Source: Thermococcus thermotolerans | GTDB lineage: Archaea; Methanobacteriota_B; Thermococci; Thermococcales; Thermococcaceae | DNA length: 64,000 nt | Direction of reading: 5' to 3' | Assembly: GCF_024707485.1 (NCBI RefSeq) | Contig: NZ_CP102602.1 | Span: 1,922,001 to 1,986,000 of the forward strand | Part shown: piece after piece, positions 46,769-50,076 of the stretch | Position numbering within the stretch: the stretch's first letter is position 1 | Layout of the letters: each line of letters begins with the position of its first letter | Notes under the pieces: generated by a model | Databases searched by the model: none | What the model was told of the DNA's origin: nothing | Seen by the model: only the letters and a program-made list of their open reading frames with translations | Program-made: the position numbers and the translations under genes

Positions 46769-47695
46769 ATGGAGAGGTGGAGAATAATTCGAGCCTTCAC
46801 CTTAGGTCCTCTCCTTGAGGCGACGGTTCCGAAGCCCGGCAACGTGAACCGCTACCGGGACTTCGGGGATCTGACCATCTACAACTTCCTGTTCGCTGAT
46901 ACGGCAGTCATCGGGGTCTACTACGAGGCCGTGAAGACGGCCGAACTCCTGCGAAAAGGCATCCTATCCTTCAGTGAGGCCGGCATCGGGGATCTGATAA
47001 AACGCGCGGTTCAGGCCTCGCGTGAGGCTCAGGACGCCAACCCGAATTTTGGAGTCATAGCCCTTTCAGTGCCCCTCATAATGGGGCTGACAATGGGCCG
47101 CAACATGCTCGATGCTCGGGAGAAGGCGAGGCTCCTGATAGAAGAATCGACGGTCAGGGACAGCATGGAGTTCTACAGGGCGATAAGGATAGCAAATCCC
47201 AAAGGAATCCCCAGCGGGGTCAAGTATGACGTTTACAGTGACGAGTCCTTCAGGGAGCTCTTCCGGGACGGTATAAACCTTGCCCGGCTGGCGGAGATGA
47301 GCTGTGAAAGGGAGCTCATCTTCTGTGAGTGGCTCAACGGCTACGACCTGAGCTATTCCACATTTGGCAGGCTCTACGATCTGATAAAGGAGATGCCGCT
47401 TGAGGACGCGGTTGTGGGGGCATTCCTTGAGCTCCTGACTGAGAAGGAGGACACGCTCATAGTGAGGAAGGCTGGAAGGAGGGAGGCCGACCTCGTGAGG
47501 AGAAAAGCCAGGGAGGTTCTCAACGGAAAGCTCTCCCTGCAGGAGTTCGACGCCTTCATGCGAGAGGAGGGCGATTTAAGGAACCCCGGCAGTCTCGCCG
47601 ATATAATGGCCGTCTCGCTGAGCCTGCTCGCCCTGCGGGGACTCAGAATGGAAATCAGAAACGGAAAGGTATGGGGAGTTATAGGACGACCTTAA
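46769..47695 (+). CDS. Triphosphoribosyl-dephospho-CoA synthase-like (CitG family) protein
   Basis: The 308-residue all-helical protein has the CitG-type substrate site LLEATVPKPGNVNRY and the metal-binding acidic helix pairs (DANPNFGVIAL). CitG makes the prosthetic group of citrate and malonate decarboxylase lyases. No such lyase exists in the window and Thermococcales are not known for one, so the archaeal reaction may differ. The start follows the previous stop directly (GGTGGTGTGA). Confidence 0.75.
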   Translation: MERWRIIRAFTLGPLLEATVPKPGNVNRYRDFGDLTIYNFLFADTAVIGVYYEAVKTAELLRKGILSFSEAGIGDLIKRAVQASREAQDANPNFGVIALSVPLIMGLTMGRNMLDAREKARLLIEESTVRDSMEFYRAIRIANPKGIPSGVKYDVYSDESFRELFRDGINLARLAEMSCERELIFCEWLNGYDLSYSTFGRLYDLIKEMPLEDAVVGAFLELLTEKEDTLIVRKAGRREADLVRRKAREVLNGKLSLQEFDAFMREEGDLRNPGSLADIMAVSLSLLALRGLRMEIRNGKVWGVIGRP

Positions 47696-47960
47696 ACCTC
47701 TTCGCGCCGCCGGGGCCGAGCCCGAGGGCTTTGCTGTCTGCGACAACTGCATCGCCTTCCAGCTCTTCGACCACACGTATCTTGAACCCGGAGAGCTCAA
47801 AAACCTCCTCTTCATCCCCAAACTCCTCGTTGAGCTGCTCCCTTATGAACTCGTAGGCCTTCTTTCCGAGCAGGACCACGTCCGGCTCGTAGCCGTCGAG
47901 CTTCAGCTCGTTGGCCTTCTCCTCAACAGAGCTGAGAACCCTTATCAGGTCGCCGCGCAT
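47679..47960 (-). CDS. Family-4 encapsulin-like (A-domain, DUF1884) protein
   Basis: The 93-residue protein from the ATG at 47960 (GATGGTGTCGAAA upstream) matches my memory of P. furiosus PF0899 (structure solved as DUF1884): MRGDLIRVL, PDVVLLGKKAYEFI and DSKALGLGPGGAKR. This family was grouped as family-4 (truncated HK97 A-domain) encapsulins. Such proteins in Thermococcales lie beside enzyme genes carrying anchor tags; here the nearest neighbour, a CitG-like protein, is convergent and overlaps by 17 bases, and the other side is a repeat element. Whether it forms a shell is unknown. Confidence 0.72.
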   Translation of the reverse strand: MRGDLIRVLSSVEEKANELKLDGYEPDVVLLGKKAYEFIREQLNEEFGDEEEVFELSGFKIRVVEELEGDAVVADSKALGLGPGGAKRFKVVL

Positions 47961-48023
47961 TTTCGACACCATCAAAAAATAGGCAGGGGAGTTTAAAAGG
48001 ATGATTATGGTCCCAAATAGACG

Positions 48024-48060
<37 letters not shown>

Positions 48061-48070
48061 GAGAGAAATG

Positions 48071-48712
48071 TCAGAGCCCAAACGCCCCCTTGATCCCGTT
48101 AATTATCATCTGCACGGCCATGGAGGTCAGTATCAGACCCATCATCCTCGTCAGCACTTTGATGCCCACCCTTCCGAGCCTTTTCTGTATCCTGTTCGAG
48201 GAGCAGAGGATCAGCCAGACAGTGAGGCCTATCGCGACGATGCTCGCTATGACGGTCGCCTTCTCGGAAACCTCGCGGCTCTTGGCCATGTAGAGCATGA
48301 CCGTCGTTATCGCTCCCGGGCCTGAGATAAGGGGTATCGCGAGGGGTATTATGGCGACCTCCTCCAGGGTGACGACGTCCTCGCTGAACTCTTCGGTTTC
48401 CTCCTTGCTTATCTTCACGGTGGAGAGCCTTCCGGAGAGCATGTCCATTGCCATCTTGAAAAGCAGAATGCCACCGGCTATCGCGAAGGCGTCAACACTC
48501 GAACCGAAGAACCTGAATATCCACTCCCCAATGAGGGCGAAGACCACGAGGGTCACCACTACCGTCAGTGCGGTCTTTGTCGCTATTTCGCGCCTCTCTT
48601 TCCAGCTCAGGTCGTGGGTAACACTCAGAAACACGGGAACTGCTCCGACCGGGTTCGTTATTGCAAACAGTCCGCCGTAGAGTATCACGAAGTACTTGAG
48701 ATACTCTATCAC
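48071..48712 (-). CDS. snatA: MarC/SnatA-family membrane protein (neutral amino-acid transporter type)
   Basis: The 213-residue protein starts at a GTG with GGGTGGTCGC upstream; the longer frame to 48772 adds no homologous sequence. It has six membrane helices and the family pattern FAITNPVGAVPVFLS near the N terminus and PLISGPGAITTVM in the middle. SnatA of Thermococcus sp. KS-1 was described as a transporter for neutral amino acids such as glycine. Confidence 0.87.
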   Translation of the reverse strand: MIEYLKYFVILYGGLFAITNPVGAVPVFLSVTHDLSWKERREIATKTALTVVVTLVVFALIGEWIFRFFGSSVDAFAIAGGILLFKMAMDMLSGRLSTVKISKEETEEFSEDVVTLEEVAIIPLAIPLISGPGAITTVMLYMAKSREVSEKATVIASIVAIGLTVWLILCSSNRIQKRLGRVGIKVLTRMMGLILTSMAVQMIINGIKGAFGL

Positions 48713-48752
48713 GCGACCACCCGCACCGGCAGGAAAAGATGGGGTTAAAAAG

Positions 48753-49184
48753 TTAATCCCTCCTGCTTTCATCGGGGATTATCTCGAAGGAGTACGTGAG
48801 CTCGGCACCGCTGAGCTTCACGTGCGCACTGGCAGAGCAGTACTTGTCCTGGCTCAGCTCTATGGCGCGCTTCGCCTTCTCCTTGCTCACGTCGCCGTAG
48901 ATTTTGTAGTGGATGTGAACCCTTTGATATATGCGGGGGTGCTCCTCGCGCCTCTCGCCGCTTATCTCGACCTCCAGGCCTCTAATCGGCTCGCGCATCT
49001 TCTGGAGTATCATGACGACATCATAGGCCGTGCACCCGGCAACGCTGAGAAGAAGGAGCTTCATCGGGCTTATTCCTCCCTCCCCGAGAACCACCGCGCA
49101 ACTCTCACCTTCTATCCTTCCAATGAACTGGGTTCCTTCCGTCCACCTCAGCTTTCCCTTTATTTCGTCCCCCACTTGCTCCAC
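48753..49184 (-). CDS. OsmC-family peroxiredoxin-like protein
   Basis: The family's two Cys are present, in AGCTAYDV (peroxidatic) and KYCSASAH (resolving), with GGISPMKLLLLSVAGC as the helix before the first. OsmC/Ohr proteins reduce organic hydroperoxides. The start is uncertain: a GTG at 49184 (143 residues) fits a leaderless transcript from the shared promoter at 49206-49213; a TTG at 49202 adds six residues; GGGTGGAG could serve a GTG at 49175. Confidence 0.82.
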   Translation of the reverse strand: MEQVGDEIKGKLRWTEGTQFIGRIEGESCAVVLGEGGISPMKLLLLSVAGCTAYDVVMILQKMREPIRGLEVEISGERREEHPRIYQRVHIHYKIYGDVSKEKAKRAIELSQDKYCSASAHVKLSGAELTYSFEIIPDESRRD

Positions 49185-49233: not shown

Positions 49234-50076
49234 ATGTACATCCGGCCATTTGACCCCTGGAAGGCGAAGCTCTGCACATGCCCCTTTAAGTACACGCTGA
49301 ACGTCTACACCGGCTGCGACCACGCGTGCGTTTACTGCTACATAACGAGCTACATCCCCAACGCCTTTCGGGTGAGGGTCAAGGAAGGTCTCCTGCCGAT
49401 GCTGGAGCGGGAGCTGAGGCGCCTCGACAGGCGCTACATAATAGCGCTTTCCTATTCCTCGGACCCCTATCCAACGGTGGAGCGGGAGCTGGGCATAACG
49501 CGGAAGGTTCTCAAACTCTTCAAACGCTACGGTGTCCGATGCCTGCTCCTCACGAAGTCGGAGGTATTTGAGCGCGACCTGGATATCCTGGGCGAGCTTA
49601 AGTGCGCCGTCGGAATAACGGTGACCACGGTGGATAGACGGAAGGCAAAGCTGCTGGAGCCAAATGCCCCATCACCGAAGGCAAGGATCAGAGCCCTGGA
49701 GAAGGCTAAAGAAGCAGGCATCCCAGTTTATGCCCGCATAGACCCGATAATCCCGTTCTACACGTGGGAGGACTTCGATGAGACGCTCGACGCGCTGGAT
49801 TTTGTCGACCACATAACCGTTTCAACCCTCAAGCTCCGGCCGGATTCGAAGAGGCGCATGTCCGCCAAGTTCCCGGAGCTGATGGAGAGGCTGTGGCCGC
49901 TATACGAAAGGGGTGAGAGGATAGGCGGCTATTACTACCTGCCCCGCGAGCTGAGGCTTGAGATTCTGCGTGAGGCTGAGAGGAAGATTCTGGAAAGGGG
50001 GATCACGTTTGGTTCGTGTCGGGAAGGCTACCGTTCGTTTCCGAGCTGTGATGGCTCCCATCTTGTCCCTTTGTGA
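49234..50076 (+). CDS. Radical SAM protein, SPL-like family
   Basis: The 280-residue protein has the radical-SAM cluster ligands Cys28, Cys32 and Cys35 (CDHACVYC), an additional CTC at 14-16, YSSDPYPTVE after the third strand and a C-terminal GYRSFPSCDGSH tail. It resembles spore-photoproduct-lyase-type (SplB/DUF1848-like) proteins; its substrate is not known. No ribosome site is seen and a TATA box 24 bases upstream suggests leaderless translation. Its 3' end overlaps the convergent amidotransferase gene by 74 bases. Confidence 0.82.
   Translation: MYIRPFDPWKAKLCTCPFKYTLNVYTGCDHACVYCYITSYIPNAFRVRVKEGLLPMLERELRRLDRRYIIALSYSSDPYPTVERELGITRKVLKLFKRYGVRCLLLTKSEVFERDLDILGELKCAVGITVTTVDRRKAKLLEPNAPSPKARIRALEKAKEAGIPVYARIDPIIPFYTWEDFDETLDALDFVDHITVSTLKLRPDSKRRMSAKFPELMERLWPLYERGERIGGYYYLPRELRLEILREAERKILERGITFGSCREGYRSFPSCDGSHLVPL

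Follow-up and report, generated by a model that had tools for sequence, protein, structure and literature searches.

A family 4A A-domain gene in an OsmC-type locus of Thermococcus thermotolerans is preceded by a promoter-like element of its own

Introduction

Which enzyme, if any, does a 93-residue encapsulin-like protein of Thermococcus thermotolerans serve? The question arises from a locus within a 64,000-nucleotide stretch of contig NZ_CP102602.1 (hereafter the window), for which the original prediction described a solitary family-4 encapsulin-like gene lacking the tagged cargo-enzyme gene that such genes are reported to adjoin. A convergent CitG-like gene was given as its only close neighbour, and the protein was proposed to work alone, to serve a distant enzyme or to have the CitG-like product as a new type of partner. 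In the OsmC-type family 4A described by Andreas and Giessen in 2021 (PMC8346489), OsmC is the reported enzyme and the arrangement with OsmC and MarC upstream is already published. According to the same source, Pyrococcus and Thermococcus species generally carry one 4A and one 4B system each, and its section 10 mentions no targeting tag in connection with family 4, so a tagged cargo is not what is reported there.

Results

The predicted ORF is genuine, and its resemblance to PF0899/DUF1884 was borne out by profile searches. The protein matched the NCBIfam model NF041190 (encap_f4a) at 158.6 bits (cut-off 90) and Pfam PF08967, the former DUF1884, at E 1.2e-30 (106 bits, cut-off 31.4); the f4b and f4c NCBIfam models gave 41.5 and 27.0 bits, both below their own cut-offs. 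Among solved structures, the nearest was that of PF0899 from Pyrococcus furiosus (PDB 2PK8; E 3.8e-28). It is close to certain that the protein is a known family 4A member in a known OsmC-type locus.

The gene did not prove solitary. The OsmC-type layout, with OsmC and often MarC upstream on the same strand, was found in the window (Table 1), where MarC lies 110 bases from the A-domain gene and OsmC, overlapping MarC by 20 bases, about 0.8 kb upstream of it. With these two genes on the same strand, neither the absence of an adjoining cargo-enzyme gene nor the status of CitG as sole close neighbour could be upheld; the original prediction had not mentioned these minus-strand genes. MarC reached 216.2 bits with TIGR00427 (cut-off 99.2). 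OsmC scored 92.8 bits with PRK10738, below the cut-off of 138, and its nearest solved relatives were Aq_1549 (2e8c) and an E. coli "hypothetical protein (crp region)" (1ml8), which we take to be YhfA-like; its two cysteines presumably fit the OsmC pattern. Relatives commonly have 43-51 bases between MarC and the A-domain gene; the window gap exceeds this because it holds a GC-rich hairpin, which may be similar to an IS200/IS605-type element end. The same gap contains the promoter-like site. From their genome positions, TK0189 of T. kodakarensis and tg1059 of T. gammatolerans are inferred to be orthologues of the window OsmC; the former was reported to rise 3.8-fold in salt stress (PMC4473059) and the latter to be induced by cadmium (PMC3407056).

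Table 1. Features of the locus, in window positions.
Feature	Position	Strand	Remarks
CitG-like protein	46769..47695	plus	convergent with the A-domain gene; PF01874 E 3.5e-49
Family 4A A-domain encapsulin-like protein	47679..47960	minus	93 aa; ATG at 47960
GGTG ribosome-binding-like site	47967-47970	minus	before the A-domain ATG
BRE/TATA-like element ATCATCCTTTTAAA	47992..48005	minus	-45 to -32 from ATG; 5.8 bits
GC-rich hairpin ccgccctaaagggcgagg	48024-48057		in the MarC/A-domain gap
MarC-family (NAAT) membrane protein	48071..48772	minus	233 aa at longest start; PF01914 E 1.1e-62
OsmC-family protein	48753..~49184	minus	~143 aa; longest ORF start 49202; PF02566 E 1.9e-16
Radical-SAM protein	49234..50076	plus	divergent from OsmC; PF04055 E 8.2e-20

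Within the family Thermococcaceae, 92 of 94 genomes had a PF08967 match, including all 74 of good quality. A search of the phylum found it in 92/115 genomes, all within the same family, and in 0/21 genomes outside it. A contig scan returned at least 21 loci, all of them Thermococcus, Thermococcaceae or Thermococci records among the matches listed; no viral relative was confirmed in IMG/VR contigs scanned with the single protein and with an alignment. For neighbourhood analysis we combined the window with the 85 listed hits whose profile match began at position 1 (the 4A pattern), giving 86 loci from 86 genomes and leaving out genomes in which the 4A hit was missing or unlisted. In 59 of these loci the A-domain gene had OsmC upstream on its own strand (38 with MarC, 21 without), and OsmC adjoined it directly in 17/17 loci of genera g4, g5 and g6, with gaps of 33-71 bases. 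The other loci had MarC only (11), hydrogenase alpha (8) or none of these (8); 4 of these 27 (L113, L114, L115 and L118) have less than 2.6 kb of upstream contig, too little for a full judgement, while L133 has some 5 kb. All 8 hydrogenase-linked loci belong to genus g3, which we infer from its PF0899-like sequence to be Pyrococcus-like.

Additional ORFs were seen near some of these loci. A family of about 289 residues without a Pfam match (cluster C8; 30 members in 19 loci, e.g. L040 8166-9056) has an apparent N-terminal membrane segment and often lies between MarC and the A-domain gene. At L063 (genome G002), ORFs with repeated peptides (ISILLKSYWN, FNTSKVLLE) occupy that position, which suggests a CRISPR array.

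In nearly all of the 75-base segments before the 86 4A starts, a stretch rich in A preceded a T/A box, and a GGTG-like ribosome site came after it. We scored the segments with a 14-base BRE/TATA model whose training set comprised 99 upstream regions of genes with divergent starts (57 clusters) and excluded A-domain genes. Taken alone, the window site is weak, since 168/2000 dinucleotide shuffles of its own sequence reached 5.8 bits. Across the family, the best site fell at -49 to -40 in 86/86 4A genes, with a median of 8.1 bits compared to 3.25 for dinucleotide shuffles, although the 86 sequences are related and do not count as independent observations. Scores of at least 6 bits were obtained for 69/86 4A genes, 15.7% of dinucleotide shuffles and 2/46 operon-internal control genes (HydG, HydD, HydA and LiaI). 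The position of the site was tied to the start codon whether OsmC, MarC, hydrogenase or another gene stood upstream. Furthermore, its spacing agrees with published Thermococcus promoter geometry, in which BRE and TATA lie about 33 and 23 bases before the transcription start and 5'-UTRs have a median of 12-16 nt (PMC4247193, PMC5316973).

Other genes were scored with the same model. About 11/12 DeoC genes, which come first, exceeded 7 bits, compared with about 2/16 family 4B genes. MarC often has a promoter-like site of its own (median 6.5 bits), and the positive control HydB, the first hydrogenase gene, performed poorly (about 2/7 over 7 bits), for which a wrongly called start may be responsible. 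An internal promoter is compatible with read-through from OsmC and MarC.

The constant distance in 86/86 genes, together with the presence of OsmC elsewhere in many genomes that retain the A-domain gene, lends unexpected support to the earlier proposal that the protein acts by itself or for an enzyme encoded at a distance. The reading that we favour, with roughly even confidence, is that of an oligomeric accessory scaffold expressed from its own promoter, with OsmC as likeliest client and with the neighbouring gene not strictly defining the client. The A-domain protein would be made from its predicted promoter and would form a small oligomer, either a pentamer or a dimer, which might assist soluble enzymes as an accessory scaffold or in a chaperone-like role. 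OsmC would be its likeliest but non-exclusive client in the window, and a closed shell with a single cargo need not exist.

The proximity of OsmC in 59/86 loci could instead mark a dedicated partner. In such a two-component system, A-domain facets or a shell would bind or enclose OsmC, protecting OsmC or its peroxide chemistry, and MarC would be accessory. Besides same-strand linkage and the direct adjacency in g4-g6, this possibility draws on the operon typing of PMC8346489 and on the complex of GAPDH with an A-domain protein in P. furiosus that it cites. We nevertheless consider it less likely, as OsmC is missing from the neighbourhood in 27/86 loci, including the 4 on stretches too short to tell, the A-domain gene has its own promoter-like site, and the two genes come apart in the following ways.

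An OsmC match was found in 85/94 genomes, and most of the 27 genomes without OsmC beside the A-domain gene encode it elsewhere; the A-domain gene is separate from OsmC in at least a quarter of genomes. OsmC was divergent from the radical-SAM gene, with starts at most 300 bases apart, in 59/59 linked loci and in 19/19 checked loci from genomes where OsmC is not beside the A-domain gene (78/78 in all). Among these unlinked genomes, MarC remained with OsmC in G020 and G072 and with the A-domain gene in some others. What lies beside the A-domain gene does not mirror the set of enzymes that a genome encodes, since the window genome carries, away from this locus, an SHI-like hydrogenase alpha orthologue with 85% identity; hydrogenase alpha matches at E 1e-60 or better, weaker paralogues included, occurred in 82/94 genomes. 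The neighbour thus varies, while the enzymes are for the most part encoded whichever arrangement a genome has.

Comparison of 78 OsmC sequences, 4 of them partial, revealed no conserved targeting tag or tail, linked or unlinked, and the C-terminus comes right after the last conserved stretch. A mirror-tree test within g1 did not single out OsmC either: A-domain distances corrected for radical-SAM gave a partial r of just 0.20 with OsmC and 0.64 with CitG.

We also compared distances to g4-g6. A-domain proteins of hydrogenase-linked g3 were more distant than those of OsmC-linked g1 (41.8%, n=8, vs 30.5%, n=42), with little excess for radical-SAM (20.3 vs 21.8; n=4 and 42) or OsmC (36.9 vs 34.4; n=4 and 38). 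Lost linkage to OsmC alone does not explain the g3 excess, because g1 genomes with MarC only showed none (30.8, n=8), whereas g1 genomes lacking both neighbours showed some (35.6, n=7). The g3 excess is compatible with a changed partner but is so confounded with phylogeny that it cannot count as evidence.

A further alternative is a small dimeric adaptor that merely keeps the capsid A-domain fold and makes no encapsulin-like assembly. According to PMC8346489, 2PK8 crystallised as a dimer; moreover, no shell is reported in the literature that we found, and at about 90 residues the protein lacks most of the capsid fold. The authors of PMC8346489 suggest, however, that the tag disturbed pentamers, and our AlphaFold2 model, predicted from the window protein together with 20 relatives (mean pLDDT 88.7), spans the A-domain found in capsids and encapsulins. 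A Foldseek search of the PDB placed 2PK8 at the top (E 3.6e-11), with all later matches at E > 0.001 and HK97 capsids next. Structural re-alignment to 2PK8 gave Z 18.3, rmsd 0.9 and 53% identity, and the other 49 rows shown were all HK97-fold capsids or encapsulins by title (Z 7.5-9.6 over 80-92 residues, a Z under 8 being weak on its own). Since this list is uniform, the relation of the model to capsid A-domains does not depend on names. By its predicted structure, the 93-residue protein falls in the class of HK97 A-domain folds of about 100 residues, and we regard the adaptor as quite improbable.

Three short, uncharacterised phage proteins in BFVD (A0A127AW84, A0A6J7VQR9 and A0A068EMQ5; 82-128 residues) also resembled the model, with TM scores of 0.55-0.67 relative to query length and E 0.002 at best; they are perhaps stand-alone A-domains in phages.

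The 17-base overlap with the convergent CitG-like gene is real (47679-47695). Among 77 convergent loci, which comprise every locus outside g3, the overlap measured 17 bases in 50, 14 in 2, 11 in 20 and 8 in 4; the sole non-overlapping pair is 1,834 bases apart. In that pair (L092, genome G037), a 393-residue ORF that we take to be TnpB-like lies between the two genes. That CitG is the real partner, held through the convergent overlapping pair, is highly improbable even though it is the most constant neighbour (77/86 loci, overlapping in 76) and co-diverges most strongly with the A-domain protein, for it occurs in 9/9 g3 genomes but beside the A-domain gene in 0/9, its convergent orientation precludes co-transcription, and overlapping neighbours are expected to co-diverge by shared inheritance, so that co-divergence is no proof of partnership. 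The overlap alone may also freeze the pair.

Discussion

Both the family 4A protein and its OsmC-type locus have been described before; only the own-promoter point is new, and it is computational. A false lead, the solitary shell protein with a CitG partner, is removed and the gene is placed in a described system. On sequence grounds, two results appear to weaken the published operon picture, namely the start-anchored site in 86/86 genes and the retention of the radical-SAM neighbour by unlinked OsmC in 19/19 genomes. We tentatively propose, a little short of even confidence, that 4A proteins, instead of being subunits tied to one enzyme operon, are autonomous, separately transcribed scaffold or chaperone-like proteins able to change or share clients, and that the Pyrococcus gene moved with its promoter from an OsmC locus to a hydrogenase locus. 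If the promoter holds in RNA data, it becomes doubtful whether a 4A gene's neighbouring enzyme can be taken for its cargo, as is the field's working rule, and studies of complexes with OsmC or hydrogenase should also seek other clients.

Literature searches on family 4, PF0899/DUF1884/2PK8 and OsmC/MarC in Thermococcus found, among the papers listed, no study of 4A proteins beyond PMC8346489, and the words "encapsulin" and "OsmC" are absent from the main text of a T. kodakarensis interactome paper (PMC12016516).

The window protein shares the A-domain fold with HK97-fold capsids and family 1 encapsulins and differs in having the A-domain alone. Family 4B, of DeoC or GAPDH type, is represented in the window genome by a paralogue (G000:C1:1676520-1676747) behind DeoC and overlapping its end. 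Most 4B genes overlap DeoC by 4-17 bases, and they differ from 4A in a shorter loop between helices, a C-terminal extension, this overlap and the lack of a promoter-like site of their own. PF0899/2PK8, the hydrogenase-type 4A protein of P. furiosus, belongs to the same family as the window protein, but its neighbour is sulfhydrogenase I instead of OsmC and no CitG lies beside it. Finally, the window locus agrees with the OsmC-type family 4A of PMC8346489 in family, length and the one-strand order OsmC, MarC, A-domain, without any difference in gene order. To that picture, our analysis adds a start-anchored promoter-like site in every context and the separability of the A-domain gene from OsmC.
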